From: Sporichthyaceae bacterium
Lineage (GTDB): Bacteria > Actinomycetota > Actinomycetes > Sporichthyales > Sporichthyaceae
Reading direction: 5' to 3'
Assembly (NCBI GenBank): GCA_036493475.1
Contig: DASXPS010000204.1
Span: 1 to 41,142 of the forward strand
Length of the DNA: 41,142 nt
The notes beneath the pieces are model-generated. The model worked only from the letters and a program-made list of their open reading frames with translations. It searched no databases and was not told where the DNA came from. Within the stretch, counting starts at the first letter, position 1, and each line of letters begins with the position of its first letter. The position numbers and the translations under genes were made by a program. This document shows positions 17,547 to 38,297 of the stretch, in pieces.

Positions 17547-17795
17547 ATGGTCGGCGATCACTGGTTCGTGTACCCGGTGGAGAACGGCGTCGAGCTGGTC
17601 GTCGACTCTGCGGACCCCGACGTCTACGACCGGGCGCTGGCCCAGTTCGTCACCCACTTCACCGACTACAACCTGGCCGCGGAGTGGTCGATCGGGGGCG
17701 GCGAGGTCATGCACTTCGTCCCCGCACCGGAGGATCACGACGCCCCCGCCGCGACGCCTGCGCCCCACTCCACAAATGTGGGCAATTCGGGATGA
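17547..17795 (+). CDS. small WFVYPV-family protein B (82 aa, unknown function)
   Basis: ATG 17547 behind AGGGGGAA. Paralogue of the protein at 13574-13864: DHWFVYPVENGVELVVDSAD, then DYNLAAEW and VMHFVPAPED in the same spacing. The conserved part is residues 5-60; the tail is short, Pro/Ala-rich and probably unstructured. Soluble and acidic, no Cys pair, no signal peptide. The strong conservation of the upstream region between the two copies suggests shared regulation. Next downstream is the deacetylase gene, 71 nt away, but two small hairpins lie between. Confidence 0.78.
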   Translation: MVGDHWFVYPVENGVELVVDSADPDVYDRALAQFVTHFTDYNLAAEWSIGGGEVMHFVPAPEDHDAPAATPAPHSTNVGNSG

Positions 17796-20858: not shown

Positions 20859-23048
20859 TCAGCCCGGAATCAGGTCGTACCGGTCCGCGCCCATGACCTT
20901 GCCGAAGGCGGCCGCGAAGTCCTGCGCGAACCGCCCGGCCGCGTCGTCCTGCGCGTAGGCCTCGGCGATGGCCCGCAGGATCGAGTTCGACCCGAACACC
21001 AGGTCCGCCGCCGTGGCGGTCCCGACGGTCGCACCGTTGGCCATGTTCTTGCCCTCGAAGATGCCCTCGGCACTGGCCGACGGCGACCACAGGGTGTCCG
21101 CGTCGAGCAACCTGGTGAAGAACTCGTTGCTCAGCGTCCCGACCCGGTCGGTGAACACGCCGTGCTTGGACTGGCCGTGGTTGGCCCCGAGCACCCGCAG
21201 GCCGCCGACCAGCACGGTCATCTCCGTCGCGGTGAGGCCGAGCAGGTTGGCCCGGTCCACCAACCGCACCTCGGTCGGCACCTTGTCACCGGCGCGGTGG
21301 AAGTTGCGGAAGCCGTCGTCCTTGGGCTCCAGAACCGCGAAGGAGTCGACGTCGGTCTGCTCCTGCGCGGCGTCGGTGCGGCCCGGTTGGAACGGCACGG
21401 TGACCGTCTGCCCGCCCGCCTTGGCCGCCGACTCGACGGCCGCGCAGCCGGCCAGCACGATCAGGTCGGCCAGCGAGACCTTCTTGCCGCCCGAGGCGGA
21501 CATGTTGAAGTCCTGCTGGATCTGCTCCAGGCCCTGCAGCACCTTGGCCAGCTCGGTGGGCTCGTTGACCTCCCAGTTGCGCTGCGGTTCCAGCCGGACC
21601 CGAGCACCGTTGGCGCCACCGCGCTTGTCGGTGCAGCGGAACGTCGCCGCCGACGCCCAGGCCGCGGACACCAACTGAGTGACCGTCAGACCGGAGCCGA
21701 GCACCTTCTCCTTCAGCAAGGAGATGTCCGAGGCGTTGATCAGCGCGTGGTCGACGGCCGGCACCGGGTCCTGCCAGATCTGGATCGGCGCCACCTCGGG
21801 CCCGAGGAGACGCGAGGCCGGGCCCATGTCGCGGTGCAGCAGCTTGTACCAGGCCTTGGCGAAGGCCTCGGCGAGCTGGTCGGGGTTGTCCTTGAACCGG
21901 CGCGAGATCGGCTCGTAGATCGGGTCCATCCGCAGCGCCATGTCGGCCGTGGTCATCATCGGCGCGTGCCGCTTGCTCGGGTCGTGCGCGTCGGGCACCA
22001 GCCCGTCACCGGTGGTGCCGACCGGCTTCCACTGGTTGGCGCCCGCCGGGCTCTTGGTCAGCTCCCACTCGAAGCCGAACAGCGTCTCGAAGAAGCTGGT
22101 GTCCCACGTCGTCGGCGTCGGGGTCCACGCCCCCTCGATGCCCGAGGTGACCGCGTCATAGCCGAGGCCGCTGCCGTTGGCGTTCTTCCAGCCCAGGCCC
22201 ATGGCGTGCACGGGGCAGCCCTCGGGCTCCGGGCCCACCAGGTCCGGGTCGCCGTTGCCGTGCGCCTTGCCGAAGGTGTGACCACCGGCGATCAGCGCGA
22301 CGGTCTCCTCGTCGTTCATGGCCATCCGAGCGAAGGTCTCGCGGATGTCGCGGCCGGACTTGACCGGGTCCGGGTTGCCGTTGGGCCCCTCCGGGTTGAC
22401 GTAAATCAGGCCCATCTGGACCGCACCGAGCGGGCCCGCGAGGTCGCGATCGCCGCTGTAGCGCTCGTCGCCCAGCCAGGAGTCCTCCGGGCCCCAGAAG
22501 ACCTGCTCGGGCTCGTAGACGTCGGGGCGGCCGAAGGCGAAGCCGAAGGTCTGGAAGCCCATCGCCTCCAGCGCAACGTTGCCCGCCAGCACCAGCAGAT
22601 CGGCCCAGGAGATCGCGTCGCCGTGCTTCTTCTTCACCGGCCAGAGCAGCCGGCGAGCCTTGTCCAGGTTGCCGTTGTCCGGCCAGCTGTTCAGCGGCGC
22701 GAAGCGCTGCTGGCCCGCGCCACCGCCGCCGCGGCCGTCCTCGATGCGGTAGGTGCCGGCCGCGTGCCAGGCCATCCGGATGAACAGCGGGCCGTAGTTG
22801 CCGTAGTCCGCGGGCCACCAGGACTGAGAGTTGGTCAGCACCTCGGTGACGTCGCGCTTGACGGCTGCGACGTCGAGCTTCTGGAATGCCTTGGCGTAGT
22901 TGAAGTCGTTGCCCACCGGGGTGGACTGCGGCCCGTGCTGATTGAGCATCTGCACGTTCACCTGGTTGGGCCACCAGTCCAGGTTGCTCTGCGGATTGTG
23001 CTGAGTCGGCTTCGGGGAGGACAGTGCTGGGTTTTCACTTTCGGACAC
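20859..23048 (-). CDS. katG: catalase-peroxidase
   Basis: 729 residues from GTG 23048, chosen because AAGGA sits about 5 nt upstream and the resulting N-terminus ([13 protein letters not shown]) fits the family; ATG 23078 is a weaker option. Active-site residues are intact: Arg91, Trp94 and His95 in [11 protein letters not shown] (M. tuberculosis 104, 107, 108), the cross-link Tyr in [11 protein letters not shown], Met in RMAMND, and the proximal haem His in [10 protein letters not shown]. The Ser of TSGIEGAWT, the position linked to isoniazid resistance in M. tuberculosis (S315), is present. It detoxifies peroxide using haem. The start overlaps the end of furA by 14 nt, implying translational coupling. 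Confidence 0.97.
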
Positions 23049-23511
23049 GTCGTCCTTCTTCCTGTTTCGCAGTTCCATGGAGGGGTGGATCACTGATTTG
23101 GCATGCCGGGCACAGGCCCCAATACACGACCTCGGCCTCATCGATCGCGAAGCCCTGATCGTTCGATGCGGTCAGACACGGGGTGTCCCCGACGGAACAG
23201 TCGACGTCGGCGATCACCCCGCACGACCGGCATACGACGTGGTGATGGTTGTCCCCGACGCGGGACTCGTAGCGGGCCACCGAGCCGGGGGGCTGGATAC
23301 GACGCACCAAACCGGCGGTGGTCAGTGCGCGCAACACGTCGTAGACGGCCTGATGCGACACCTCACCGAGTTCGGTGCGCACGTTACTGATGATCGAGTC
23401 CGTGTCGGCATGCGGATGTGCGTGCACCGCGGCCAACACTGCCGTTCGAGGTCGGGTCACGCGCAACCCCGCCGCGCGCACCATGTCCTCGAATTCGAAG
23501 ATCGTGGACAT
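23035..23511 (-). CDS. furA: Fur-family regulator of catalase-peroxidase
   Basis: 158 residues from ATG 23511, preceded by GGTAGGTGC. The winged-helix domain reads [21 protein letters not shown] then [21 protein letters not shown]. The metal-binding and dimerisation domain has [12 protein letters not shown] and a second Cys pair at LCPAC (structural zinc). Gene order furA-katG is conserved in actinobacteria, where FurA represses its own operon and is released by peroxide or metal loss. The operator-like palindrome lies 19 nt upstream of the start. Confidence 0.95.
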
Positions 23512-23637: not shown

Positions 23638-24786
23638 TCAACCTGCATCAGCGACCGCGGGTTCCCCGGGCCGCCCGCGGCGGCGACGCCCCACCACCGC
23701 GAGGACGGCGATCCCCACCAGCACGACCGCCCCGCTGGCGACCACCCACGTCAGAGCACCGTCGCTGCGCTTCCGCGGAAGCGCGTTGTTCGGCAGCCAA
23801 CTGATCGTGCCGCCGAGTTGCGCCGAGGCACCGTCCAGCCGCAGCGGGATCGTCCATCGGCCGAGCTGCGCCGTCTTGCCCTCCCGCTCGACCACCGCCG
23901 GCGGGCGGTCGGCCGAGTACTGCAACCGGGTGTCCAGCCAGCGGACCCGGCCCGACTCGCCGACCCGCACCCACCCGGTGCGGCCCTCGGCCTGGTCGGT
24001 GAAGTCGATGTTGTCGCGGAAGTTCCGGCTCTCGGTGTTGGCCCAGGCCCCTTCGGCGTCCAGGCGGAGGAAGTCCTTGCCGTCCTCACCGAGCACCACG
24101 ACCGTGCGGCCGGGCGGTGCGACCAGCAACAGCGCGGGCACCCGGCCCTGCGACACGGTCAGCTGCAGGTCGTCGCGGCGTGGGTCGGGCTCGGCCACGA
24201 ACGTCCCGGTGACAGCCTTGCGTTCCAACGCCCCCATGATCGTGACCGGGACCGAACCCATCCGCATCCCGATCGTCCAGCGCGCCACGATCGTGCTGTT
24301 CGGCTCGGTGCCGGGAGCCAGCGGGTGCAGCCGGGGCTCGAACCAGCCGAAGGCGTCGGTTTGCGACACCTGCACCCAGTGCGGCTTCGCACCGGGCCGC
24401 GCCTCGGTGGGCAACCGCGGCGGGACGTCGGGCGGATTCAGCGTTTCGGAGAAGAACGGATCCGCCAGGTTGCCGAGCACGCCGGCGCTCGACACCTTCA
24501 GGAACGCGGTCCCGTCCGGGTCGAGCACGGTGAGCACGTCGCGCGCCGGGTTCGCCACCAGCATCTGCTCGCTGACCCCGGTGCGGACCTGGACGACGAC
24601 GCCGGCCGGCAGCGCCGGGGAGATCGAGTCGATCACCGGAACCAGCGTCGGATCGGTGCCGTGTGCGAGCGCCGCGGGCGCTGGGCACAGCACCGCCGCG
24701 ACCGCGACCGCGACCGCGACCGCGACGAGCAGCGGACCGCGGACCAGCCGCGCCCGGACGGAAGGTGACCCGGAGCGCCGCCTCAC
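23638..24786 (-). CDS. membrane-anchored two-domain partner of the copper oxidase
   Basis: 382 residues. GTG 24786 overlaps the TGA of the oxidase gene by 4 bp, so translation is probably coupled. A signal peptide with a VAVAVAVAVA core ends PAALA, predicting a mature protein that begins with His42 (HGTDP). Two homologous beta-rich domains follow (about 60-200 and 215-335). Compare VRTGVSEQMLVANPARDVL with VSQGRVPALLLVAPPGRTV, and WVQVSQTDAFGWFEPRL with WVRVGESGRVRWLDTRL. A C-terminal TM segment (TWVVASGAVVLVGIAVLAVVG) and a basic tail anchor it with the domains outside. An N-terminal His is a copper ligand in CopC-type and LPMO proteins, so copper handling is a reasonable but unproven guess. 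Confidence 0.8.
   Translation of the reverse strand: MRRRSGSPSVRARLVRGPLLVAVAVAVAVAAVLCPAPAALAHGTDPTLVPVIDSISPALPAGVVVQVRTGVSEQMLVANPARDVLTVLDPDGTAFLKVSSAGVLGNLADPFFSETLNPPDVPPRLPTEARPGAKPHWVQVSQTDAFGWFEPRLHPLAPGTEPNSTIVARWTIGMRMGSVPVTIMGALERKAVTGTFVAEPDPRRDDLQLTVSQGRVPALLLVAPPGRTVVVLGEDGKDFLRLDAEGAWANTESRNFRDNIDFTDQAEGRTGWVRVGESGRVRWLDTRLQYSADRPPAVVEREGKTAQLGRWTIPLRLDGASAQLGGTISWLPNNALPRKRSDGALTWVVASGAVVLVGIAVLAVVGRRRRGRPGEPAVADAG
24697..24726 (-). repeat. (CGCGAC)5 hexanucleotide repeat in a signal peptide
   Basis: Five perfect copies of CGCGAC on the plus strand. On the coding strand they read as alternating Val-Ala in the hydrophobic core of the signal peptide. Unit gain or loss keeps frame and changes core length by two residues. 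Confidence 0.85.
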
Positions 24787-26846
24787 CGGGCCCGGCGGCC
24801 CCGACGTCCGGCCGTCGAGCGCACCGGGGCGCCCGGTAGCACGGCGTGGTCACGACCGGTGTCGGGAAGCGTTGATCGGGACGGGTCGGGGGTGAGCGGA
24901 ACCACCGGGACCCCGGCGCGCAACTCCTTCGCCGCCAGCTCGATCTGACGGGCCATCAGGGCATGGACCATCGCGACGGGTTGTTTGGAGTCGACGAACA
25001 CCTGCCGGGCCACGGAGGGGATCTCGCCCTGGTTCGACATCGTGTGCGCGAACAGGAAGTACGGGCCGGGCGTCAGGTAGTTGCTACCCGGCACCTCAAC
25101 CTTGACCGCGTTCGCGGTCCGGCCGACGATCTTCAACTCCACGTTGCGCTGGTCGCCGTCGACCAGGTGGGTCTGCGACGGGTTGCGGTACAGCCGAATG
25201 CTGGAGATGTCCTGCGGCCGGTCCACCTTCACGGTGAGCACCTTGTTGGTGCTGATCATCGGGTTCACGCCGGTGATCACCGGACGCTTGCCCCAGTACA
25301 GGTTCGGCGGGGTGAAGATCTGGAAGCTGGAGTCCGCCCAACCCGGGGCCATGCCGAAGTTGTCCGCAGCCGCGTCGGTGGGCTGACCGTAGAGCAGCGC
25401 CCCCACCGGCGCGTGCCCACCGACCAGGATCCGACCGTCGGGCAGCAGCACCGCAGTGGTGTGGTAGCTGCGCCGGTGGGCCTGAGGCTCGAGCACCGTC
25501 CACTTGCTGGTGGCCGGGTCCCACATCTCGGTGGACTTGTTGGCGTAGTCGATGCCGGGGGTCTCCAGGTGATCGCGGTCGCCGCCGTTGACCACGTACA
25601 CCTGGCCGGTGGACAGCAGCACGCCGTCCGACAGCCAGCGTGGGGTGTGTAGATTCCCGGCCGAGACCGAGGAGAAGGCGTCGGTGCCGTAGCCCACCGA
25701 GGTCAACGTCGTAGCGAGCTGACCGAAGTAGCCGCCGGGCCACTCGAACGGCACCCCGCCGACGGAGAGGAACTTCGTCGCGGTGTCGCCGGGCTTGATG
25801 GTCAGCATCACCGAGACCCCGGACCCCCGGAAGCCCAGCGGCAGCCCGCCGAAGTCGTTCATGCCCAGGTCGGTCCAGCCGTTGGTCTTCGGGTCGAAGA
25901 CCGAGTCGAAGCCCCAGGTCGCCTCGTCCCAGGAGTACCCCATCGGGTTGGCGACCTGGCCGCCGGCGTTGAACAGCGTGCGGCCGTCGGGCAGCAGATG
26001 CATCCGCGGGAACAGCGGCAGCGACTTCTTCGCCGAATCCGGCAACGTCGTCCATTGCCCGGTGGCCGGGTTGAAGCGTTCGATGTGGCGCTCGTTGGCC
26101 ATCGAATCGCCGGGCCGGTCCGGGTAGTACGGCTTGATCATCTTGGTGACGCCGCTGAAGGTGATGATGGAGCCGTCCGGCTGGGTGACCATGGTCGGAT
26201 ACCAGCGGGCCCAGTTCATCTTCCCGGCCTCGGACCAGGAGTTCGTGCGCGGATCGAAGATCCGGGTGTTCTTCAGGCCGTTGAGCTCGACGATTCCGTA
26301 TTCGGGGTGCCCGGGGATGCCGGGCTCCTGGTAGTAGGCGGTACCACCGTTGGTGATGACCCGCCCATCGGCGAGGAAGTTCAGGTCGGCGCAGAACAGG
26401 TCGCCGTCGTTGTCGGTGACGTCGTTGTTGTGCAGCGGCCCGGGCAGGTACTCGTTGTCCGGGTTGCCGTTGGGGTTGATTCCGGTGTCCGGCTGCTTGG
26501 GCACCGAGAACTTCGGCGTCCCGCTGCGCAGGTCCAGAATCGCCGAGTTGCTGTTCTGCGCGGTGGTGCCGAACTCGGTGACCAGGGTGTCCTTGTTGCC
26601 GACGTGGTTGATGCCCTCCAGTCCGCTCCAGTACAGGTCGCGGCCGTCCGCCAGCTCGGCGATCGCGTTGGCCGTCGGGTTGCACCGCGGCTGCGGGTTG
26701 AACGCCCGTTCGCAGTTGATGCCCTTCGGGTTCTCGAACACCCCGCTGAACAGCCCGGTCTGGGCCGCGGTGAAGACGTGGGGCGCCGTCGGGGCGAACG
26801 GGGCGATCAGGGCGGCGGCAGTCACCGCGAGGACCGGGTTGCGCAT
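24783..26846 (-). CDS. galactose oxidase/GlxA-type radical copper oxidase
   Basis: 687 residues from ATG 26846 (GAGGTGAG upstream). Signal sequence, then a Kelch-like beta-propeller and a C-terminal Ig-like (DUF1929) domain. The catalytic set of the family is visible: Cys152 (DLFCADLNF) and Tyr216 (ARWYPTM), equivalent to the Cys-Tyr cross-link C228-Y272 of fungal galactose oxidase; axial Tyr461 and copper ligand His462 (SYHTTAVLLPDGR); and copper ligand His601 (FAHTMSNQGEIPS). The enzyme class oxidises an alcohol to an aldehyde with O2, giving H2O2. Streptomyces GlxA acts on an extracellular glycan made by CslA; no cslA is near here. The C-terminal tail is basic. Head of an operon with the 23638-24786 partner. 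Confidence 0.9.
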   Translation of the reverse strand: MRNPVLAVTAAALIAPFAPTAPHVFTAAQTGLFSGVFENPKGINCERAFNPQPRCNPTANAIAELADGRDLYWSGLEGINHVGNKDTLVTEFGTTAQNSNSAILDLRSGTPKFSVPKQPDTGINPNGNPDNEYLPGPLHNNDVTDNDGDLFCADLNFLADGRVITNGGTAYYQEPGIPGHPEYGIVELNGLKNTRIFDPRTNSWSEAGKMNWARWYPTMVTQPDGSIITFSGVTKMIKPYYPDRPGDSMANERHIERFNPATGQWTTLPDSAKKSLPLFPRMHLLPDGRTLFNAGGQVANPMGYSWDEATWGFDSVFDPKTNGWTDLGMNDFGGLPLGFRGSGVSVMLTIKPGDTATKFLSVGGVPFEWPGGYFGQLATTLTSVGYGTDAFSSVSAGNLHTPRWLSDGVLLSTGQVYVVNGGDRDHLETPGIDYANKSTEMWDPATSKWTVLEPQAHRRSYHTTAVLLPDGRILVGGHAPVGALLYGQPTDAAADNFGMAPGWADSSFQIFTPPNLYWGKRPVITGVNPMISTNKVLTVKVDRPQDISSIRLYRNPSQTHLVDGDQRNVELKIVGRTANAVKVEVPGSNYLTPGPYFLFAHTMSNQGEIPSVARQVFVDSKQPVAMVHALMARQIELAAKELRAGVPVVPLTPDPSRSTLPDTGRDHAVLPGAPVRSTAGRRGRRAR

Positions 26847-27047: not shown

Positions 27048-27111
27048 AATGCCCCATGCGTTCCAAACTGCATCACGAGCCGGACGCGCAGCGGTCGGTG
27101 AGAGGAGACGA

Positions 27112-27498
27112 CGAGCCGGCCTGTAAGCCGGATTCTGTGGCCGGACCTTGCGGGCCGACCGGCGGCCATCCATCTGGGACCGACGTTGCCGTCGGCCTCG
27201 GTGCGGCCTACCTGTGAGCTCGGGCGGGCCGCCCTCGAACGCTCACACACGACGGGCGAGCCCGCCGATCTTGGCCTTGCTCCGGGTGGGGTTTACCGAG
27301 CCGCCCGGGTCACCCCGGACGCTGGTGGTCTCTTACACCACCGTTTCACCCTTACCGCTGCACCGAAGTGCAGTGGCGGTTTGTTCTCTGTGGCACTGTC
27401 CCGCGGGTCGCCCCGGGTGGGTGTTACCCACCACCTTGCCCTGTGGAGTCCGGACTTTCCTCGACGGATCGCTCCGCCGCGGCCGCCCGGCCGGCTCG
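27112..27498 (-). ncRNA. rnpB: RNase P RNA, class A
   Basis: About 387 nt on the minus strand. The ends form helix P1: CGAGCCGGCC at the 5' end (27489-27498) pairs with GGCCGGCTCG at the 3' end (27112-27121). The universal core is present in the minus-strand reading: GAGGAAAGTCCGGACTCCAC with ACAGGGCAAGG near the 5' end, GGTAAGGGTGAAACGGTGG, TAAGAGACCACCAGC, GGTAAACCCC, and ACAGAATCCGGCTTACAGG at the 3' end. It is the catalytic RNA that matures tRNA 5' ends. Exact termini are inferred from P1. The short reading frames across this stretch are not genes. Confidence 0.96.
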
Positions 27499-27516: not shown

Positions 27517-27634
27517 CTTCGACAGATACCTCTCAGCGACTTTTTTCCAGACTCTCACCTGCGCGGTCCGTGCAAAGTGACCGATCGGTAGGCATTCTCG
27601 GTTTGTACTGCCGCACGTCTGACCGGAGGAACCA

Positions 27635-30600
27635 GTGGGCCGCACCGATTCGGGCGACCGGTCGGAGCTGACCGTCCAGCTGTGCGCCATCGCCGCCGAG
27701 GTACTCGGGGTTGCGACGGTCACGCCGGAGGCGACGTTCTTCGAGGACCTCGGCGCTGATTCGCTGACCATGGCGAAGTTCTGCGCCACCGTGCGCAAGC
27801 GCTCGGAGCTGCCCCGCGTCTCCATGAAGGACATCTATCGCTGGCCCAGCGTCGCGGCCATCGTCGCGGGCCTGGAATCCGCGCCGACGCCCCCTCCGGC
27901 AGCCGTGCCGGTGCCCCGGGTCGGTGTGGAGTCCGCTCCCGCCCCCGCGTTCCTCGGCGCGGCGCTGGGCACCGAGATCGCGGAGCACCCGGCTCCACCC
28001 GCCCCGATCGAGCCCGTGGGTTCCGGCGATTTCTTCGCGACACTCAAGGCCTATCGGCAGATCCTCACCGAGTTGCTGGCCGGCGCGGAAGTCTCCCCCG
28101 GCGCGCACGTTTTCGACGAACTCGGCGCGGATTCCATGACCATGGCGAAGTTCTGCGCGACGGTCCGTAGGCGCACGGACCTACCCAAGGTGTCGATGAA
28201 GGACGTCTACCGGCATCCGACCCTCGCCGAGCTGGCCGCCGCACTCGCGCCCGGCGCGGGGGCAGCCGCGCTATTGGTGCCCGGCGCGGACGCAGCCCCG
28301 GCGCCCGCCGCGTCGCCCGCGGCGATCGAACCGGTGCGCGGCGGCGGGCCCCCGGCGCCCTTCGTCATCGACCCGGTCGGGCGGTTCGCCTACGCCTTCT
28401 GCGGCCTGGCCCAGCTGGTGATCCTGCTGCTGCTGCCCGTGCTGGTCTCGGCCGCGAGCGTCGTCGGTTACCGCTGGCTGGACCCGGCGCATGGCCCGCT
28501 CGCGACGTACCTGCGCGCGGTCACCTTCGCTACGGGCGGTGTGCTGGCCTGCTTCCTGCTGCCGGTGCTGCTGAAGTGGACGCTGATCGGGCGGTGGAAG
28601 CCGACCACCATCCGCGTCTGGTCGCTGCGCTACCTGCGGTTCTGGGTGGTCAAGTCGGTGGTGCAGCGCAACCCGCTGATCCTGATCATGCTCGGTTCCC
28701 CGCTGTACGGCGTGTACCTGCGCGCGTTGGGTGCGCGGATCGGCCGTGGCACCACGATCCTGACCAACCAGGTTCCGCTGTGCACCGACCTGTTCTCCGT
28801 CGGGGAGGACACCGTCATCCGCCGCGACACCGTGATGCCCGGCTACCACGCCGAGGCCGGCCTCATCCGCACCGGACGGATCACCCTCGGCGACCGGGTG
28901 GTGGTCGGCGCCAAGACTGTTGTCGACATCGAGACCGCGATGGGCGACGGCGCCCAGCTCGGTCACGCTTCCGCGTTGCACCCCGGCCAATCAGTGCCCG
29001 CCGGCGAGCGCTGGTACGGCTCCCCCGCCGGGCCGGGCAACGTTGACTTCGGCGCCGTCGAGCCGGACCCGTGCCGCAGCTGCTCGCGCCGCCGCCGCAC
29101 TCTGTTCGGCATCAGCCAGTTGCTGTGGACGATCCTGTTCACGCTGCCGCTCGGTTTGGCGGTGCTGGACGGATTCTGGAATCTGGCCATCCGGTTGAGC
29201 GGCGGCACGCCCGGCACGGCCTCACTGAGCACCGCACGCTTCTACGGCAGCGCCGCCGCCAACTCGGCGGTGCTGTTCTTCGGCGTGCTGCTGGTCTGGT
29301 TCCCTGTGCTGAACCTGACCGCGCGGGCGCTGAGCCTGCTGGTGCGACCGGACAAGGTCTATCGACTGCACGGCATCCGGCACTCCGCGCTGCGCACCAT
29401 CACCCGCATCACCACCATGAAGTTCTACGCGGGGATGGTGGCCGACAGCTCCTACGTCGTGTACTTCCTGCGCGCACTGGGCTACCGGCTCACCCCGATC
29501 CTGCAGACCGGCACCAACTTCGGCACGGTCGCGCACGACACCCCGTTCGCCGCGCGGGTCGGCACCGGCACGGTCATCGCTGACGGCCTGTCGCTCAACA
29601 ACGTGGACTACTCGGCGTCCACGTTCCGGGTAGCCCCGGTGTCCATCGGCGCCCACAGCTTCCTGGGCAACGGCATTGCCTACCCGCCCCGCGCCACGGT
29701 CGGGGACAACTGCCTGATCGGCACCATGACCATGGTCCCGATCGACGGCCCGGTGCGAGAAGGCGTCGGCCTGCTGGGTTCCCCGCCCTTCGAGATCCCC
29801 CGCACCGTGGCCCGCGACACTGGCTTCGCCATCGAGGACCCCGCCGAACTGCGCCGCGGATTGCGGCAGAAGAATCGTCACAACACGCTGACCGTGCTGA
29901 TGTTCCTGCTGGTGCGCTGGATCGGCGTGTTCTCGTTGTTCGTGTTTGCCGAGGCGGGCGGCGAGGCCATCGACTCCTCGGGCAGCGCCTGGGGCCTGGC
30001 GATGGCCGAGGCCGGCTACGCGGTGTTCCTGTTCGCCTTCTACCTCGCGGTGGAACGTGCATGCACCCGCTACGCCTCGCTGTGCCCGGACGGAGTTTCC
30101 ATCTACGACAACCGATTCTGGCGTCACGAGCGGTACTGGAAGGTGCCCTCCCGCGGCTACGTCCAGTTCCTCAACGGCACTCCGTTCAAGAGCGTGGTGC
30201 TGCGCCTGCTCGGCGCGAAGATCGGCAAGCGGGTCTTCGACGACGGGGCGTCGTTCCCGGAAAAGAGCTTCGTCACCGTCGGCGACTACGCCACGCTGAA
30301 CGCGTCCAGCGGCGCGCAGACGCACTCACAGGAGGACGGCGCTTTCAAGTCCGCGAAGACCGTGGTGGGCGCGGGCGTCACACTGGGCGTCGCCTCCTTC
30401 GTGCACTACGGCGTGACGATCGGCGACGGCGTGCTGTTGGCCGCGGACTCGTTCCTGATGAAGGGGGAGCAGGTACCGGCCGGCGAGTACTGGGCGGGCA
30501 ACCCCGCGCAGCCCGCGGACCCGTTCCTGACGTGGCCGGAGCCGGTTGCCCTGCCCGCCACGACCGTGGACGCGCCCGAGCCCGTCCAACTGGCGCTCCA

Positions 30601-30865
30601 GGTCGAGATGGTGCCCACCCACCCGCCGGCGCCCGACCGGCCCGCGGCGCCCTCCCGCGGCCGCCTGGTCCTGCTCCTCTACAGCATCGTGCTGGCCCTC
30701 GGTGGGGTGTTTCTGCTCGCCGAACCCGGCTGGGACCTCGCCTGGCGCAGCGCGGGTGCGCTGGCCCTCGTCGTGGCCGCCGGTCTGGACGCCGCGATGC
30801 TCCGCCGCGCCGCGGCAGTCAGAGCCGCCGCACCAGCGGCACAACTGACCGACGCTCCTCGTTGA
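27635..30865 (+). CDS. Pls/PosA-type NRPS terminal membrane protein with tandem carrier domains, no adenylation domain
   Basis: 1,076 residues from GTG 27635 (GGAGGA 5 nt upstream). Two carrier domains open the protein, each with an intact phosphopantetheine Ser: LGADSLTMAKF (Ser43) and LGADSMTMAKF (Ser167). They are near-duplicates (both continue FCATVR...LP-x-VSMKD-x-YR). The remainder follows the plan of the NRPS terminal region TIGR02353 and of epsilon-poly-lysine synthetase Pls. Three soluble hexapeptide/beta-helix-like domains (about 366-470, 640-720 and 860-965) are separated by pairs of TM segments (about 252-320, 493-570 and 752-810), with two further TM segments near 1011-1055. No adenylation, condensation HHxxxDG or thioesterase domain exists, so activated amino acid must come from another protein. 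Product unknown. Confidence 0.85.
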   Translation: MGRTDSGDRSELTVQLCAIAAEVLGVATVTPEATFFEDLGADSLTMAKFCATVRKRSELPRVSMKDIYRWPSVAAIVAGLESAPTPPPAAVPVPRVGVESAPAPAFLGAALGTEIAEHPAPPAPIEPVGSGDFFATLKAYRQILTELLAGAEVSPGAHVFDELGADSMTMAKFCATVRRRTDLPKVSMKDVYRHPTLAELAAALAPGAGAAALLVPGADAAPAPAASPAAIEPVRGGGPPAPFVIDPVGRFAYAFCGLAQLVILLLLPVLVSAASVVGYRWLDPAHGPLATYLRAVTFATGGVLACFLLPVLLKWTLIGRWKPTTIRVWSLRYLRFWVVKSVVQRNPLILIMLGSPLYGVYLRALGARIGRGTTILTNQVPLCTDLFSVGEDTVIRRDTVMPGYHAEAGLIRTGRITLGDRVVVGAKTVVDIETAMGDGAQLGHASALHPGQSVPAGERWYGSPAGPGNVDFGAVEPDPCRSCSRRRRTLFGISQLLWTILFTLPLGLAVLDGFWNLAIRLSGGTPGTASLSTARFYGSAAANSAVLFFGVLLVWFPVLNLTARALSLLVRPDKVYRLHGIRHSALRTITRITTMKFYAGMVADSSYVVYFLRALGYRLTPILQTGTNFGTVAHDTPFAARVGTGTVIADGLSLNNVDYSASTFRVAPVSIGAHSFLGNGIAYPPRATVGDNCLIGTMTMVPIDGPVREGVGLLGSPPFEIPRTVARDTGFAIEDPAELRRGLRQKNRHNTLTVLMFLLVRWIGVFSLFVFAEAGGEAIDSSGSAWGLAMAEAGYAVFLFAFYLAVERACTRYASLCPDGVSIYDNRFWRHERYWKVPSRGYVQFLNGTPFKSVVLRLLGAKIGKRVFDDGASFPEKSFVTVGDYATLNASSGAQTHSQEDGAFKSAKTVVGAGVTLGVASFVHYGVTIGDGVLLAADSFLMKGEQVPAGEYWAGNPAQPADPFLTWPEPVALPATTVDAPEPVQLALQVEMVPTHPPAPDRPAAPSRGRLVLLLYSIVLALGGVFLLAEPGWDLAWRSAGALALVVAAGLDAAMLRRAAAVRAAAPAAQLTDAPR

Positions 30866-30892: not shown

Positions 30893-31267
30893 TCAGCGGC
30901 GGTTTGCCGGGCGCCCGCGCCGCGCCCGCGGTCGCGCGGCGGCGATCCGGCGTCGATGCTCACGAATGTCGCCGTCCGGCCGCGCCCACGCGCTGGGCAT
31001 GGCGAGCACCTCGAAGTCGGCCACGCCGGCGATGATCGCGGGATCGGCGGCAGCCAGGCGGAGCACCTCGGCCTCGTCGGCGGCCTGCACCACCGCCAAC
31101 CCGTACACGCCTTCCTCGGTCGACACCGGACCGGCGACCACCACGTGACCCCCGTCGAACAAGCCGGCCCAGTAGGTGAGGTGCTCGGCCATCACGTCGC
31201 GCACTTCGACCGAACCCGCGACCGCACGCGGAATCAGTCGGTACACGAAATGACGGGCCACAGCCAC
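30893..31267 (-). CDS. YciI-like protein
   Basis: 124 residues from GTG 31267, chosen because AGGAGG lies 5 nt upstream; a GTG seven codons earlier has no such site. Ferredoxin-like YCII pattern: ARHFVYRLIPR, MAEHLTYWAGLFDGGHVVVAGPV, GVYGLAVVQAADEAEVLRLAAADP. The conserved His-Asp pair of the family is partly visible as AEHLTYW. The C-terminal about 25 residues are Arg/Ala-rich and likely flexible. Family members are small cytosolic proteins, a few with dehydrohalogenase or lyase roles; here no substrate can be named. Its stop is 27 bp from the stop of the convergent Pls-like gene. Confidence 0.8.
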   Translation of the reverse strand: MAVARHFVYRLIPRAVAGSVEVRDVMAEHLTYWAGLFDGGHVVVAGPVSTEEGVYGLAVVQAADEAEVLRLAAADPAIIAGVADFEVLAMPSAWARPDGDIREHRRRIAAARPRARRGRPANRR

Positions 31268-31367
31268 CGGCGCCTCCTGCTGTTGCACGCATCCTCGTCC
31301 GGCCGGGTATGACGGAGGTCAAACGCTCACCCGTTCGTGGGCAACGGGCGGTAGTCATACCTTCATC

Positions 31368-31444: not shown

Positions 31445-34400
31445 GTGGCCATCCGCGTCGCCGTCGAACACCGCACCGTCTACCGGTTCGATCGACCCAC
31501 CGACATCGGTCCGCACCTGGTCCGACTGCGCCCGGCGCCACACTGCCGCACGTCGATCACCGGATACTCGCTGCGCGTCTCTCCCGCCGAGCACTTCGTG
31601 AATTGGCAGCAGGACGTCTACGGAAACCACGCCGCGCGCCTGGTCTTCACGCAGCCGGCGACCGAACTGTCGATCACCGTGGACCTGGTGGCCGATCTCA
31701 GCCCCATCAATCCCTTCGACTTCTTCGTCGACGACTCCGCCCGGCAGTTCCCGTTCGAGTACCCGCTCGGCTCGGCCGAGGATCTCGCGGCCTACCTGCG
31801 CCGCGTCGACGAGCCCGGCACCCCCGTCGGCTCCGGTGCTGGTCCGCGGCTGCGGCACTGGCTCGAGGAGTTCGACGCCCCGTCCGCCAAGGGCACGGCG
31901 ATCGTCGACTTCCTCGTCGAACTCAACCGCCGGGTGGCCGGCGACATCGCGTATTCGCTTCGTATGGAGCCCGGTGTGCAGTCTCCCGACACGACGCTGG
32001 AGACCGGCGTCGGATCGTGCCGGGACAGCGCGTGGTTGCTGGTGGCAATGCTGCGCGAGCTTGGCTTGGCGGCCCGTTTCGTCTCCGGTTACCTGGTTCA
32101 ACTGGTGCCCGATGACGCCTCGGCGAACCTCACCGAGGACTTCACCGACCTGCACGCCTGGGCCGAGGTCTACGTACCCGGCGCCGGCTGGATCGGGCTG
32201 GACGCCACCTCCGGACTGCTGGCCGGGGAGGGGCACATTCCGCTGGTGGGCAGTCCCCGCCCGGAGCACGCCGCTCCGATCAGCGGCAGCACCGGCCCGG
32301 CGGTCAGCACGCTGGAGTTCGCGAACAGCGTGCGACGCATCCACGAGGACCCACGGGTCAGCAAGCCGTACTCCGCCATCCAACTCGAACGGATCGATGC
32401 GCTGGGCGAGGCGGTGGACGCGCGCCTGGCCGCGGGCGATGTACGCCTGACCATGGGCGGCGAGCCGACCTTCGTCGCGGCCGACGACATGGACTCCGCG
32501 CAGTGGCGGATCGCCGCCGACGGTGCGGAGAAGCGGGACTACGCACTCGCGCTGGCCCGGCGCCTGATGGAGCACTACGCACCGGCGGGCGTTGCCATCC
32601 ACGGGCAGGGCAAGTGGTACCCGGGTGAGCCGTTGCCGCGGTGGCAGATCGGCATCTTCTGGCGGGCCGATGGCACCCCTTTGTGGTTGGACCCCGATCT
32701 GCTCGACCACCCGTGGGCCGACACAACGCTCCAACCGGGTTCGAAGGCCGCTGCCGAGGCCGTTGCGGCGGTCACCGGGGCCATTGCGGCCGGGCTCGGC
32801 GTGCCCGCCGAGTATCTTCGGCCGCTGTTCGAGGACCCGTTGGACCTGCTGGCCACCGAGGCCCGGCTGCCGGCCGGTCCCCCGCCGCCCGCCCCCGGTA
32901 CGGCGGCCTGGCCCGCGGACGCCGCTCGCCGAGCGGAGATCGTCGCGGCGCTGGACGCCGAGAACGGCCGGCCGGCGGCGTGGGCCATTCCGCTGAGTCG
33001 TTCCGAGGAAGGCACCGCCTGGACCACCACCGTCTGGCGTTGCCGCCGCGGCGAGGTGTTCCTGCTTCCCGGCACGTCCCCGGCCGGGCTGCGGCTACCG
33101 CTGGACGCTTTGGCCTGGACCCCGCCGCCGATCGACCCGGACCGTTCCCGCTTTGCCCCCGTGGCCCCGCTCCGGCCGAGCGTGGCGGCCGTTCCCGCCG
33201 TGCACATCGTGCGGACCGCCGCGGCCCGGGTCCTGCCGGTCGAGGGCGCGCCCACCACGGCGCTATGCGTGCAGGAGCGCGACGGGCACGTGTTCGTGTT
33301 CCTGCCGCCGCTACCCGATGCCGCAGACACCGTCGCGCTGCTCGGCGTCGTGGAGCGGGCCGCCGCCGGCACCGGAGTGCGGGTCGTGCTGGAGGGCTAC
33401 CCGCCGGCCGGCGACGTCCGCGTGCGCACGCTCACCGTCACCCCCGACCCCGGCGTGATCGAGGTCAATGTCCATCCGGCGACCGATTGGTCGGAGTTGA
33501 CGGAGATCACCCGGACGCTGTCCGAGGCGGCGCACGGCGTCGGGCTGGCCGCCGAGACGTTCGCCATGGACGGCGCACACACCGGCACCGGCGGGGGTGG
33601 GCATCTGACCCTGGGTGGTCCGACGCCGGCCGATTCGCCGCTGCTGCGCCGGCCGGACCTGCTGGTCAGCATGCTGACCTACTGGCAGCACCACCCCGGC
33701 CTGACCTACCTGTTCTCCGGGCGGTTCATCGGCCCGACCAGTCAGGCGCCGCGCGTCGACGAGGGCCGGCACGAGACGCTCTACGAACTCCAGATCGCCT
33801 TCGCCGAGCTCGCCCGGTTGGCCGAAGCGCCCGAGGGTCCCCGGCCCTGGCAGGTGGACCGGGCCCTACGCCACTTGCTGACCGACATCACCGGCAACAC
33901 CCACCGCAGCGAGTTCTGCATCGACAAGCTGTTCAGCCCGGACACCGAACGCGGACGGCTGGGCCTGCTGGAACTGCGTGGCTTCGAGATGGCACCGCAT
34001 CCGGAGATGGCGCTGGTGCAGGCGCTGCTGGTGCGCGCGTTGGTGGTGCGGTTCTGGGAGCGCCCGTACACCGGTCCACTGGTGCGCTGGGGCACCCGGT
34101 TGCACGACACGTTTCTGCTGCCCGAGTACGCGCTGGCGGACGTGGGCGACGTGATGGCCGACCTGGCCGCGCACGACCTGCCGTTCTCCCCGGCCTGGCT
34201 GGACCCCTTCGCGGAGTTCCGATTCCCGCGGCTGGGCTCGGTCGACGTCGGCCCGGTGCATCTGGAGCTGCGCGCCGGCATCGAGCCGTGGCACGTACTC
34301 GGCGAGGAGGTGGCCGGCGGCGGCACCGCGCGCTACGTGGACTCCTCGACCGAACGCCTGCAGGTGAAGGTGAGCGGTGCCGTGCCCGGCCGCCATGCGG

Positions 34401-34828
34401 TGACCTGCAACGGGGTGCCGCTGCCGCTGTCCCCGACCCGCAGCGCGGACTCGCTGGTCGCGGGCGTGCGCTACCGGGCCTGGGCTCCGCCCTCCGCGTT
34501 GCACCCCACCATCAAGGTGCACTCCCCGTTGGTGTTCGACGTGGTGGACATCTGGAACCACCGTTCGCTGGGCGGCTGCACGTACCACGTCACGCACCCG
34601 GGCGGCCGCGCGTGGACCACGTTCCCGGTGAACGCGGCCGAGGCGGAATCCCGGCGCGGCGCGCGATTCACCGTCGGCGGGCACACGCCGGGGCCGGTGG
34701 ACCCAGCGGCATGGCAGTCTTCGTCCATGCACCCGTCCCCGGCCACCTCCCTGGTCGCCTCGACCGCGGCCGATGCCGGCGAGTACCCGCGCACGCTCGA
34801 CCTGCGCCGCTTCCCCGCGCCACGGTGA
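31445..34828 (+). CDS. transglutaminase-like + DUF2126 protein
   Basis: 1,127 residues from GTG 31445 behind GGAGGA. The N-terminal bacterial transglutaminase region (VEHRTVYRFDRP...) leads to a papain-like core with catalytic Cys192 (VGSCRDSAW), His237 (DLHAWAEVY) and Asp253 (LDATSG). The remaining about 800 residues are the DUF2126 region, beginning near VRLTMGGEPTFVAADDMDS and including GQGKWYPGEPLPRWQIGIFWR, TGTGGGGHLTLGG, LTYLFSGRFIGPTSQAPRVDE and HRSEFCIDKLFSP. The H-x-GG and R-x-E-rich pattern is consistent with the glutamine-synthetase/GCS-like amidoligase fold proposed for this family. First gene of a four-gene operon; its stop overlaps the next start by 4 bp. Cytosolic. Confidence 0.93.
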   Translation: MAIRVAVEHRTVYRFDRPTDIGPHLVRLRPAPHCRTSITGYSLRVSPAEHFVNWQQDVYGNHAARLVFTQPATELSITVDLVADLSPINPFDFFVDDSARQFPFEYPLGSAEDLAAYLRRVDEPGTPVGSGAGPRLRHWLEEFDAPSAKGTAIVDFLVELNRRVAGDIAYSLRMEPGVQSPDTTLETGVGSCRDSAWLLVAMLRELGLAARFVSGYLVQLVPDDASANLTEDFTDLHAWAEVYVPGAGWIGLDATSGLLAGEGHIPLVGSPRPEHAAPISGSTGPAVSTLEFANSVRRIHEDPRVSKPYSAIQLERIDALGEAVDARLAAGDVRLTMGGEPTFVAADDMDSAQWRIAADGAEKRDYALALARRLMEHYAPAGVAIHGQGKWYPGEPLPRWQIGIFWRADGTPLWLDPDLLDHPWADTTLQPGSKAAAEAVAAVTGAIAAGLGVPAEYLRPLFEDPLDLLATEARLPAGPPPPAPGTAAWPADAARRAEIVAALDAENGRPAAWAIPLSRSEEGTAWTTTVWRCRRGEVFLLPGTSPAGLRLPLDALAWTPPPIDPDRSRFAPVAPLRPSVAAVPAVHIVRTAAARVLPVEGAPTTALCVQERDGHVFVFLPPLPDAADTVALLGVVERAAAGTGVRVVLEGYPPAGDVRVRTLTVTPDPGVIEVNVHPATDWSELTEITRTLSEAAHGVGLAAETFAMDGAHTGTGGGGHLTLGGPTPADSPLLRRPDLLVSMLTYWQHHPGLTYLFSGRFIGPTSQAPRVDEGRHETLYELQIAFAELARLAEAPEGPRPWQVDRALRHLLTDITGNTHRSEFCIDKLFSPDTERGRLGLLELRGFEMAPHPEMALVQALLVRALVVRFWERPYTGPLVRWGTRLHDTFLLPEYALADVGDVMADLAAHDLPFSPAWLDPFAEFRFPRLGSVDVGPVHLELRAGIEPWHVLGEEVAGGGTARYVDSSTERLQVKVSGAVPGRHAVTCNGVPLPLSPTRSADSLVAGVRYRAWAPPSALHPTIKVHSPLVFDVVDIWNHRSLGGCTYHVTHPGGRAWTTFPVNAAEAESRRGARFTVGGHTPGPVDPAAWQSSSMHPSPATSLVASTAADAGEYPRTLDLRRFPAPR

Positions 34829-37341
34829 CCGACACGCTGCCCGGATCCGGGCCGGGCGCTCGCGAGTCCGCGCGCGGGATGGTGCACGCCTACGCCGCCC
34901 GGCGGGCCGCGCAGCGTTCCTGTTGGGACGAGATGGTCGGCTTCCACGGCCGGGTCCGCGGCGGCTGGCGCGAGCTGTCCGCCGTCGCCGAGCAACTCGG
35001 TCCGCAGGGGCTGGCCGCGGCCGCGGCGGAGGTCGAGCGACTGCTCGACGAGGACGGCGTCACCTACCGTCCGCTCGGCGCCGAGGAGGAGCAGCGCTGG
35101 GGCCTGGACCCGCTGCCGGTGTTCCTCGACGAGGTCGAGTGGGCGGTGCTGGAACCCGGCCTCACCCAACGCGCGCAACTGCTGGACCTGCTACTGGCCG
35201 ACCTCTATGGACCACGGGAGTCGATCCGGTCCGGGATACTGCCCACCGAGGTGGTGCACGCGCACCCCGGCTTCCTGCGCGCCTGGGACGGGGTGATCGG
35301 GGCCAAGCGGCAACTGTTCCTGGCCGCGGCAGACCTCGGCCGGGCCCGCGACGGCACCTGGTGTGTGGTCGCTGACCGGGTGCAGGCCCCCTCGGGTGCG
35401 GGTTACGCGATGGCCAACCGGCGGGTGGTCTCCCGGGTGCTGCCGACCCTGCACCGCGAGGCGGAGATTCACCGCCTCGGGCCGTTCTTCCACGCGATGC
35501 GGATCGGGTTGGAGCAGGTGGCCCCGCCCACCGCGGAGGCGCCCCGCGCCGTGCTGCTCACTCCGGGCACGCACAGCGAGACCGCCTTCGAACAGGCCTA
35601 CTTGTCCACGCTGTTGGGTTATCCGCTGGTCCGCGGATCGGACCTGATGGTCGCCGAGGGCCGGGTGTGGCGGCGCACGTTGGGCCGCCGGGAGCCGGTG
35701 GATGTGATCCTGCGCCGGGTGGACAGCTGGTTCTGCGACCCGCTGGATCTGCGCCCGGACTCCGAACTGGGCGTGCCCGGTCTGGTCGAGGCCGCGCGCT
35801 CGGGCAATGTCGCGGTGGTCAACGGGCTGGGCGCCGGGGTGGTGGAGAACCCGGCGCTGTTGCCGTTCCTGCCCCCGCTCTGCCAGCTGCTGCTGGACGA
35901 ACCGCTGCGGCTCAAGTCGGTGCCGACCCGGTGGTGCGGCGACCCCGACGAGCTGACCCTGGTGCGCGAACGGCTGGCCGAGTTGGTGATCAAACCATTG
36001 GCCCGCGGCATCGCGCGCACCCACATCAACGGATGGGAGCTGTCCGAGGCGCAGCGCGACGACCTGCGCCGACGCATCGAGGCCGAGCCGCATCTGTGGG
36101 TGGGCCAGGAGGCGCTGGCCTGTTCCACCGCACCCAGCGTGGTGGCCGACGACCTGTTCCCGCAGCTGCTCACCCTGCGCACCTTCGCCGTGGCCTCCGG
36201 CGTCGGCTATCAGGTGATGACCGGTGGACTCGGCCAGGTGCGCACTCCGCACGGCGGACTGACGGCGCGTGAGACCCCGCCGACATCCAAGGACATCTGG
36301 ATCCGCAACACGCGTGGCGCACCGACCGTTGCCCCCTGGGTCCGCGAGGCCACCCCGTCGCAGATCCTGCCGATGACCGACTCCCCACGGGTCATCGAGG
36401 ACATGTTCTGGTTGGGCCGCTATGCCGAACGCGCCGAGGACACCGCGCGCGTGCTGCGTGCCGTGAACGACCGCTGGGCGGACTTCCACCACTCACCCGA
36501 GCAGCAGGGGGCGGCCGCGCTGGCCGTGCTGCTGCGCACGCTGAGCGCGGTGACCGGCACCGCGCCGGACATCACCGATGTGGTGTTCAACGAGGACCGG
36601 CCGGGCACGCTGGCCCACGCGGTGCGGCGGTTGACCGCGTTGTCCGGGGACGTACGCGAACAACTGTCCACCGACACCTGGCTGGTGCTCGGTGGTCTGG
36701 AACGCGAACTGCAGAACCGCCAGGACACCGACACGCCAACGACGTTGGCCAAAGTGCTGGAGGGCCTGCTGGCGTTGTCCGGGCTGATGGCCGAAAGCCT
36801 GGTGCGCGACGCCGGTTGGCGGTTCTGCGAGATCGGCCGACGCCTGGAGCGCGCCGCGCACGTCTGCGCGTTGCTGTCCGCAGGCCTGGGCGGCACACGC
36901 AGCGCGGACACCGACAGCCTGGTCGTGGAATCGGTGCTGATCGCGGCGGAGAGCATCATCACCTACCGGCGTCGCTACACCGCTCGCGCCGGCGTGGGCA
37001 CCGTGCTTGATCTGTTGCTGGTGGATCGGGAGAACCCGCGGGCCATCGGTTACCAACTCGACCGGCTCGGCGAGTCGCTGGAGCGCATCCCGTCCGATGC
37101 CGAGCGGATGGCCGGGGTGCGCGAACTACTCGGCGATCTGCGTTCCCGGGTGCGCGCCGCGGACACCCTCGCCCTGGCCATCCCGCAGGCCGACGGCGAC
37201 CGTCCCGCCCTGCGCGCGTTCCTCGATGAACTCGGCGCGGACCTGGCCACGCTGGCCGCGGACCTGCAGGACATCTTCTTCGTCCAGCGCGCCCCGCAGC
37301 GCCCGCTGGCGGGCACCGTCATTGCCGCGGAGTCCTGGTGA
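34825..37341 (+). CDS. circularly permuted ATP-grasp + alpha-E fusion protein
   Basis: 838 residues from GTG 34825, which overlaps the upstream TGA (GTGA). Residues about 1-515 are the circularly permuted type 2 ATP-grasp domain (DUF404/DUF407), with FLDEVEWAVLEPGLTQRAQLL, GPFFHAMRIGLE, VDVILRRVDSWFCDPLDLRPDS, VVNGLGAGVVENPALLPFLP and a GWELSEAQRDDLRRRIEAEP segment. From about residue 523 the all-helical alpha-E domain (DUF403) begins with IEDMFWLGRYAERAEDTARV and ends DLQDIFFVQR. In many genomes these are separate genes; here they are fused. ATP-grasp enzymes ligate a carboxylate to an amine through an acyl-phosphate. Computational work on amidoligases links this set to synthesis of an unidentified peptide or peptide tag. 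Confidence 0.93.
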   Translation: MTDTLPGSGPGARESARGMVHAYAARRAAQRSCWDEMVGFHGRVRGGWRELSAVAEQLGPQGLAAAAAEVERLLDEDGVTYRPLGAEEEQRWGLDPLPVFLDEVEWAVLEPGLTQRAQLLDLLLADLYGPRESIRSGILPTEVVHAHPGFLRAWDGVIGAKRQLFLAAADLGRARDGTWCVVADRVQAPSGAGYAMANRRVVSRVLPTLHREAEIHRLGPFFHAMRIGLEQVAPPTAEAPRAVLLTPGTHSETAFEQAYLSTLLGYPLVRGSDLMVAEGRVWRRTLGRREPVDVILRRVDSWFCDPLDLRPDSELGVPGLVEAARSGNVAVVNGLGAGVVENPALLPFLPPLCQLLLDEPLRLKSVPTRWCGDPDELTLVRERLAELVIKPLARGIARTHINGWELSEAQRDDLRRRIEAEPHLWVGQEALACSTAPSVVADDLFPQLLTLRTFAVASGVGYQVMTGGLGQVRTPHGGLTARETPPTSKDIWIRNTRGAPTVAPWVREATPSQILPMTDSPRVIEDMFWLGRYAERAEDTARVLRAVNDRWADFHHSPEQQGAAALAVLLRTLSAVTGTAPDITDVVFNEDRPGTLAHAVRRLTALSGDVREQLSTDTWLVLGGLERELQNRQDTDTPTTLAKVLEGLLALSGLMAESLVRDAGWRFCEIGRRLERAAHVCALLSAGLGGTRSADTDSLVVESVLIAAESIITYRRRYTARAGVGTVLDLLLVDRENPRAIGYQLDRLGESLERIPSDAERMAGVRELLGDLRSRVRAADTLALAIPQADGDRPALRAFLDELGADLATLAADLQDIFFVQRAPQRPLAGTVIAAESW

Positions 37342-38297
37342 GCGCGCCGGCCCCGGTGCCGGCGCCGCCCGGTGCGCGGCGTTATCAGCTCACCCACCGC
37401 ACCGAGTACCGCTACGACGAGGACGTGCAGACCAGTTACGGACGGGCTCATCTGGTGCCCCGTCACGGCGAGGGACAGCACCGCCTGGAGTACACGCTGG
37501 ACACCGAGCCGGGTCCGGTCGAGTTGTCCGAACACGCCGACTTCTTCGGCAACCGCTCGGTCTACTTCGTGGTGCGCGAGCCGCATCGAGAGCTGACCGT
37601 CACCTGCCGCAGCCTGATCGACGTGCACCGTCCCGAGGTGGACCGCGACGCGTTGCGCGATGTCCGGGCCCGCGTTGTCCGCGATCGGTTGGCCGACCGC
37701 GCCGACCTGGACCCGGACCTGCTCGACGCTCGCCCGTTCCTGTTGCCCTCCCCGATGATCGGGCGTGCCCCTGAGGTAGCGGCGTTCGCCACCGACCTGA
37801 TGCGGCCGGGCCGCAGCCTCGACGAGGTCCTCGTCGATCTGCTCGAGCGCATCGGGGAATTCGCCTACGTCACCGGGGTCACCACGGTGTCCACCCCGCT
37901 GGCCGAGGTGTTGGCCCGCCGTGCGGGCGTCTGCCAGGACTTCGCTCATCTCGGGGTGGCCGCGTTGCGTGCGGCCGGCCTGGCCGCCCGTTACGTCAGC
38001 GGGTATCTGGAAACTCGTCCCCCACCCGGCCGGGCGCGCTTGGTCGGAGCGGATGCGTCGCACGCCTGGGTGTCGGTCTTCGCGCCGGGCCTCGGTTGGG
38101 TCGACCTGGACCCGACCAACCATCAGTTCGTCGACGAGTCCTACGTGGTCGCCGCGATCGGCCGGGACTACGGCGACGTGCCCCCGCTGCGTGGCGTCAT
38201 CTTCACCGAGAGCAAGCAGAGCACGATGCAGGTCTTCGTGGACATGGAGCCGGTGCCGGTGGCGCCGGCGGGAGTGGACTCCCCGCTCGCCGGGTAG
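37338..38297 (+). CDS. transglutaminase family protein
   Basis: 319 residues from GTG 37338, again overlapping the upstream stop by 4 bp. The N-terminal beta domain (YQLTHRTEYRYDEDVQTSYGR, ADFFGNRSVYFVV) is typical of bacterial transglutaminase-like proteins. The papain-like core has catalytic Cys199 (AGVCQDFAHL), His242 (ASHAWVSVF) and Asp258 (LDPTN). No signal peptide. In this conserved cluster it is thought to act as a peptidase or amide transferase on the product of the ATP-grasp enzyme; that role is inferred from context. Confidence 0.95.
   Translation: MSAPAPVPAPPGARRYQLTHRTEYRYDEDVQTSYGRAHLVPRHGEGQHRLEYTLDTEPGPVELSEHADFFGNRSVYFVVREPHRELTVTCRSLIDVHRPEVDRDALRDVRARVVRDRLADRADLDPDLLDARPFLLPSPMIGRAPEVAAFATDLMRPGRSLDEVLVDLLERIGEFAYVTGVTTVSTPLAEVLARRAGVCQDFAHLGVAALRAAGLAARYVSGYLETRPPPGRARLVGADASHAWVSVFAPGLGWVDLDPTNHQFVDESYVVAAIGRDYGDVPPLRGVIFTESKQSTMQVFVDMEPVPVAPAGVDSPLAG

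Follow-up and report, generated by a model that had tools for sequence, protein, structure and literature searches.

A Pls/PosA-type membrane protein with two carriers and no adenylation domain, and its probable loading in trans in a Sporichthyaceae bacterium

What loads a Pls-like membrane assembly protein that has two carrier domains and no adenylation (A) domain of its own? The question is raised by an open reading frame (ORF) in a stretch of 41,142 nucleotides (the window) from a Sporichthyaceae bacterium. The ORF starts with GTG and stays open for 1076 codons without a frameshift. To my knowledge, the cationic polyamino acids described so far are made by single-chain enzymes. A single-chain homopolymer synthetase has an A domain in the chain and one carrier, and neither applies to the window protein (Table 1). 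Neither the ORF nor the rest of the 41 kb window has an AMP-binding/A-domain match in profile searches, in agreement with an earlier note that had read this DNA from its letters alone.

Table 1. Features of the window (AF2, AlphaFold2; TM, transmembrane)
Feature	Position	Strand	Basis
A-less two-carrier TIGR02353 (Pls/PosA-type) membrane assembly protein, 1076 aa	27635-30865	+	profile matches and AF2
GGAGG ribosome-binding site before the GTG start	27625-27629	+	sequence read
Carrier domain 1, aa 15-78; phosphopantetheine site Ser43 (nt 27761-27763)	27677-27868	+	PF00550; AF2 helices
Carrier domain 2, about aa 138-206; phosphopantetheine site Ser167 (nt 28133-28135)	28046-28252	+	PF00550 and AF2
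NRPS terminal (polymerisation) domain of the TIGR02353 family, aa 256-958; TM pairs and left-handed beta-helix segments, three of each	28400-30508	+	NCBIfam, AF2
Met698 for a near-invariant Lys (K698M), second beta-helix unit	29726-29728	+	alignment
Extra C-terminal two-TM hairpin (fourth hairpin), about aa 1009-1050, low model confidence	30659-30784	+	AF2, comparison of 85 proteins
rnpB, RNase P RNA class A, divergent upstream neighbour	27108-27498	-	RF00010, 288 bits
YCII-family protein	30893-31288	-	PF03795, neighbourhood clustering
Transglutaminase-DUF2126 protein	first gene of 31445-38297	+	PF09899, 1106 bits
Circularly permuted ATP-grasp and Alpha-E protein	34879-37341 (ORF as called)	+	
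Kelch/galactose-oxidase-like protein	24783-26846	-	weak match to radical copper oxidase GlxA, 147 bits (cut-off 800)
Catalase/peroxidase KatG, ordinary	20862-23141	-	1202 bits

The NCBIfam profile TIGR02353, named 'Pls/PosA family non-ribosomal peptide synthetase', matches the window protein with 589.9 bits (cut-off 423.1) over positions 2-695 of 695, and a genome-wide profile search puts it at the same place in the window. PF00550 (Pfam) matches two stretches of the protein with 71 bits, and Ser43 and Ser167 both lie within an intact LGADS motif. The two carriers with intact serines described in the earlier note were thus confirmed, while "nearly duplicate" was an overstatement, the identity of the carriers being 56% in the core. 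The AlphaFold2 model, built on an alignment of 35 relatives, has a pLDDT of 79 and a pTM of 0.75, with the terminal domain mostly at pLDDT 80-97. In this model, TM pairs are predicted at residues 250-282/288-317, 485-522/534-567, and 736-782/786-811, and a beta-helix segment comes after each pair. The three TM-pair/beta-helix units and the Pls/TIGR02353 layout of the same note are therefore present in the model and in the full-length profile match; set beside Pls, the model has the carriers, the three TM pairs, and the beta-helices, in the layout modelled for PosA. In a Foldseek search of the PDB, the matches of the window model were hexapeptide left-handed beta-helix acyltransferases; Pls was not among these matches, and no solved structure of a Pls terminal domain was found in the PDB. 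By its TIGR02353 match and predicted fold, the window protein holds as a member of the Pls-like family.

Like the window protein, Pls (the epsilon-poly-L-lysine synthetase of Streptomyces albulus) has three TM pairs and three soluble segments with a carrier in front, a layout described previously (PMC9205021, PMC10522769). In contrast, Pls combines an A domain of its own with a single carrier, while the window protein is A-less and has two carriers and an additional C-terminal TM hairpin. PosA, the delta-poly-L-ornithine synthetase of Acinetobacter baumannii, has the same TIGR02353 name and a predicted beta-helix pseudo-trimer (PMC10522769), but it is a single chain of A domain, carrier (T) domain, and terminal domain with an ornithine-specific A domain, which the window protein lacks.

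Since an ordinary Pls has the A domain in the same chain, the ORF might be one half of a normal A-T-terminal-domain gene, cut by assembly or annotation. The rnpB gene, however, lies 137 bases from the ORF on the opposite strand, so no A-domain gene has been cut off in front of it. A ribosome-binding site precedes the start codon, and the A-less start is shared by the genus mate and many other relatives. The split-gene artefact was thus ruled out, its probability being practically negligible.

The source genome (4.27 Mb, 100% complete, 217 contigs) encodes two TIGR02353 proteins, namely the window protein and one on contig C50. On one strand of C50 there are, in a row, the genes for a one-carrier terminal-domain protein, a hemi-C-A-T protein, TauD, SbnB, SbnA, and a PPTase. 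SbnA and SbnB score above the NCBIfam equivalog cut-offs (TIGR03945, 378 vs 350; TIGR03944, 424 vs 327), and their genes adjoin the hemi-C-A-T gene, not the window gene. By its gene content, this run is a putative 2,3-diaminopropionate (Dap) cluster. A whole-genome search found the hemi-C-A-T gene in a single copy, on C50. Its homologues match PF00668 (condensation) only between positions 191 and 453, and the predicted structure of the N-terminal part fits half of the condensation-domain fold; thus, the HHxxxDG lobe is missing. Without a complete condensation domain with HHxxxDG, the hemi-C-A-T protein is not a canonical NRPS elongation module. C50 and the window gene are on separate contigs, without physical linkage. 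The stand-alone A domain and the PPTase that the earlier note proposed to look for in the genome are both present on C50, and its suggestion that the loading enzyme acts in trans is supported, with the C50 hemi-C-A-T protein as the sole candidate loader. Thus, the window protein is probably an orphan Pls/PosA (TIGR02353) polymerase that is loaded in trans by the C50 hemi-C-A-T protein. In DltA-DltC and VibE-VibB, an A domain charges a carrier on another protein. The DltC/VibB-type carriers are not on a membrane polymerase, however, whereas in the present case several polymerases seem to be served by the same loader.

Could another ligase do this? The source genome has 49 AMP-binding matches, and the window protein might be loaded by another AMP-forming ligase of the acyl-CoA-synthetase type and then transfer not Dap but an acyl or another group, either at the membrane or across it. 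The resemblance of the window beta-helices to acyl transferases is in line with this idea. Furthermore, the terminal domain can be associated with other ligases: a subgroup of A-less relatives (L040, L045, L047, L065, L077, and L113) has as neighbours TauD, a small ACP, and a stand-alone AMP-forming ligase of a different kind, and perhaps represents a second way of trans-loading. On the other hand, no ligase of the searched A-domain kind was found near the window gene or near L032 or L033, its two orthologues. In the tree, the C50-type protein and not the subgroup with the other ligase is the sister of the window clade, and the window carriers keep the family motif of the trans-loaded group. 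When the best 30 of the 49 AMP-binding matches were compared, one matched the split A domain with 753 bits and the rest reached about 110 bits or less; the C50 hemi-C-A-T protein carries the sole NRPS-type A domain found among these 30. Loading by another ligase is considered unlikely.

Is loading by a hemi-C-A-T protein common among the relatives? A scan across GTDB contigs detected 80 loci. Many of the TIGR02353 proteins are A-less and have one to four carriers (four in L070; three in L037, L038, L065, and L067), with near-identical carrier copies (91-98% identity) in L034, L065, and L113. A hemi-C-A-T gene lies directly after many of the A-less genes, with TauD, SbnB, SbnA, and sometimes a PPTase around. 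A hemi-C-A-T gene is present in 33 of the 34 genomes reached through the loci, and the one genome lacking it has a single TIGR02353 protein with an intact fused A domain. An independent, even sample of the class comprised 217 actinomycete genomes, 56 of them with TIGR02353. When A-less proteins were defined by length (an ORF shorter than 1250 aa) and not by motif, all 11 genomes of this sample with an A-less terminal-domain protein encode a hemi-C-A-T protein, and none of the 45 genomes with only long TIGR02353 proteins does so. Nine of these 45 were checked by motif, and their A motifs are intact where the fetched stretch shows them. The genus g19 contains both kinds, and the rule holds within it.

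The fused A domains point in the same direction. All 14 that lie next to a hemi-C-A-T gene lack the P-loop (A3) and the A8 lysine, and none of the 19 intact ones (0/19) has a hemi-C-A-T neighbour. By alignment, the A motifs of L157, L163, L168, L171, and L208 are intact. Such decay beside the hemi-C-A-T gene suggests that a single-chain synthetase came first, that trans-loading followed, and that the cis A domain then decayed and was lost, a direction inferred with a tree that is rooted for drawing only. The earlier note had linked an A gene fused or adjacent in orthologues to a split artefact. An A gene is indeed adjacent in the C50 sister paralogue and in many relatives. This A gene, however, is separate and conserved and also encodes a hemi-C and a T domain, and the remnants of fused A domains beside it have decayed; thus, the split system is real and not an artefact. 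As judged from the sequences, trans-loading as a conserved design recurring across many actinomycetes is strongly supported. Long fused A domains without the P-loop or the A8 lysine were seen in L041, L042, L043, L049, L050, L052, L059, L080, L081, L094, L100, L103, and L110. The carriers of the relic proteins keep intact serines, and a scaffold or docking role is possible for the retained relics.

Since there are often more A-less proteins than loaders, the window protein can be understood as an orphan polymerase that shares one loader. The ratio of proteins without a functional A domain of their own to hemi-C-A-T genes is 2:1 in the source genome (G000), 3:1 in G001, 4:1 in G069, 5:1 in G071, 4:1 in G080, 2:1 in G067, 3:1 in G083, 3:1 in G092, 2:1 in G074, 1:1 in G081, 2:2 in G078, and 2:2 in G063, a few terminal-domain proteins in G074, G078, and G092 that were too divergent to be classified being left out. 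Among these genomes are the genus mate, in which a single hemi-C-A-T protein stands against three terminal-domain proteins, and three Pseudonocardia, with A-less or pseudo-A proteins to loaders at 4:1, 5:1, and 4:1. Pseudonocardia alaniniphila (G086; L085, L099, L104, L107, and L109) has fifteen TIGR02353 proteins, about ten of them without a functional A domain, and its ratio is approximately 10:1 with the single hemi-C-A-T gene seen there being partial at a contig end. Carrier number was also compared. All 19 intact-A proteins have one carrier and none has more; two or more carriers are found in 36 of the 61 trans-type proteins. At least 16 changes of carrier number fall on the tree, and the cis/trans switches provide only one to four independent pairs for phylogenetically independent contrasts between carrier number and A loss, so the Fisher values take no account of kinship. 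The doubled carrier that the earlier note had pointed out corresponds to the two PF00550 domains, and among the 80 proteins those with more than one carrier all belong to the trans-loaded group. PUFA synthases also have tandem ACPs in one chain, which are thought to raise throughput; unlike the window protein, they perform polyketide-type iteration with cis catalytic domains.

What is the substrate? The pocket code of the loader is DIWQSTADD in 27 of 31 cases and DIWQATADD in the other four, while the intact single-chain relatives mostly have DFECLSVVT. Phe at the second position is typical of Dap/Dab polymer synthetases (PMC10522769), and the loader code differs from this Dap/Dab-type code, so the Dap assignment is drawn from SbnA/SbnB and not from the pocket code. 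SbnA/SbnB make Dap for PDAP-type and siderophore pathways, and the Dap monomer of PDAP is supplied by an enzyme resembling cysteine synthase and one resembling ornithine cyclodeaminase (PMC4668381), as predicted here. The PDAP synthetase of Streptomyces albulus PD-1 (PMC4668381) has a terminal domain of the same kind as the window protein, but it is a single chain with a cis A domain, its Dap genes are not clustered with it, and no hemi-C-A-T protein, TauD, or extra carriers are described. In the open-access literature, I found neither a published match for the pocket code DIWQSTADDK nor a published account of a split Pls or an A-less TIGR02353 protein. Dap is proposed with moderate confidence as the substrate of the loader. 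For the product, the earlier note suggested a homopolymer or a small isopeptide, attached or exported at the membrane; with Dap genes present on C50, the best guess is an oligomer or polymer that contains Dap.

I infer the following working, from the loading by C50 to the substrate, the chemistry, the product, and its destination. A PPTase would attach phosphopantetheine to Ser43 and Ser167, and the C50 SbnA/SbnB would make L-2,3-diaminopropionate. The C50 hemi-C-A-T protein would adenylate the amino acid, most likely L-2,3-diaminopropionate, and load the window carriers in trans, although its A domain might charge solely its own T domain. Since the loader has no complete C domain, amide formation would fall to the terminal domain, whose fold suggests that aminoacyl-pantetheine is the donor; the membrane beta-helix pseudo-trimer would take the thioester as acyl donor and join the units by amide bonds. 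Hexapeptide acyltransferases such as maltose, galactoside, and serine O-acetyltransferase share the left-handed beta-helix fold with the window model (Foldseek) and use pantetheine-thioester donors. The proposed donor use is modelled on these enzymes, which use acyl-CoA or acyl-ACP. They are soluble homotrimers acting on acetyl-CoA, whereas the window protein has three units in one membrane chain. The two carriers may give a higher local supply of loaded donor when the A domain is untethered.

Does the window protein still do this work? In the terminal-domain tree, which is rooted for drawing only, the window protein groups with L032 and L033 (support 100), and this clade adjoins the C50 paralogue and its genus-mate counterpart (support 99). 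The C-terminal hairpin is found in the window protein, L032, and L033 and in none of the other 82 proteins; it was not reported in the earlier note. Met at the Lys698 position is also common to the three, and Thr replaces a near-invariant Asn in the window protein (N594T). With K698M and the extra TM hairpin, the product may differ from that of the C50 system; the window clade may have another product or a reduced activity. These changes, together with the orphan location and a YCII gene as the sole partner, might even be taken as signs of a decaying or repurposed paralogue without amide-polymer synthesis, e.g., a scaffold, transporter, or regulator. However, the 1076 codons are open, both carrier serines are intact, 111 of 115 near-invariant terminal-domain columns are kept, and the two genus-mate relatives have the same features; a decaying paralogue is thus quite improbable. 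Returning to the trans-loaded polymerase, it can be speculated, at somewhat less than an even chance, that one diffusible hemi-C-A-T protein charges the multiplied carriers of several membrane polymerases (two here, up to about ten elsewhere), each perhaps making a different Dap-based oligomer, and that the window clade, with its doubled carrier, K698M, and fourth TM hairpin, is a polymerase with a changed output or location.

The split version is widespread: decayed A domains bear witness to its evolution, the dedicated loader has a substrate pocket that hardly varies, and there are up to four carriers. Searches for fused A-T-terminal-domain genes miss this part of the enzyme class. The joining of aminoacyl thioesters by a membrane beta-helix domain becomes approachable with a donor supplied in trans, and whether these bacteria make Dap-based polymers or oligomers becomes a testable question.

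The YCII gene is the sole neighbour kept in all three members of the window clade; it is on the same strand as the terminal-domain gene in L032/L033 and inverted in the window. The downstream DUF2126/ATP-grasp genes and the upstream copper-oxidase-like gene were rejected as partners, since they are not kept beside L032/L033. The genes at 31445-38297 look like a predicted amidoligase system, in which a further gene on the same strand after the ATP-grasp/Alpha-E gene clusters by similarity with the transglutaminase-DUF2126 gene. Farther upstream, two similar small proteins are encoded a few kb apart on the plus strand at 13574-13861 (96 aa) and 17547-17792 (82 aa), possibly a local duplication.
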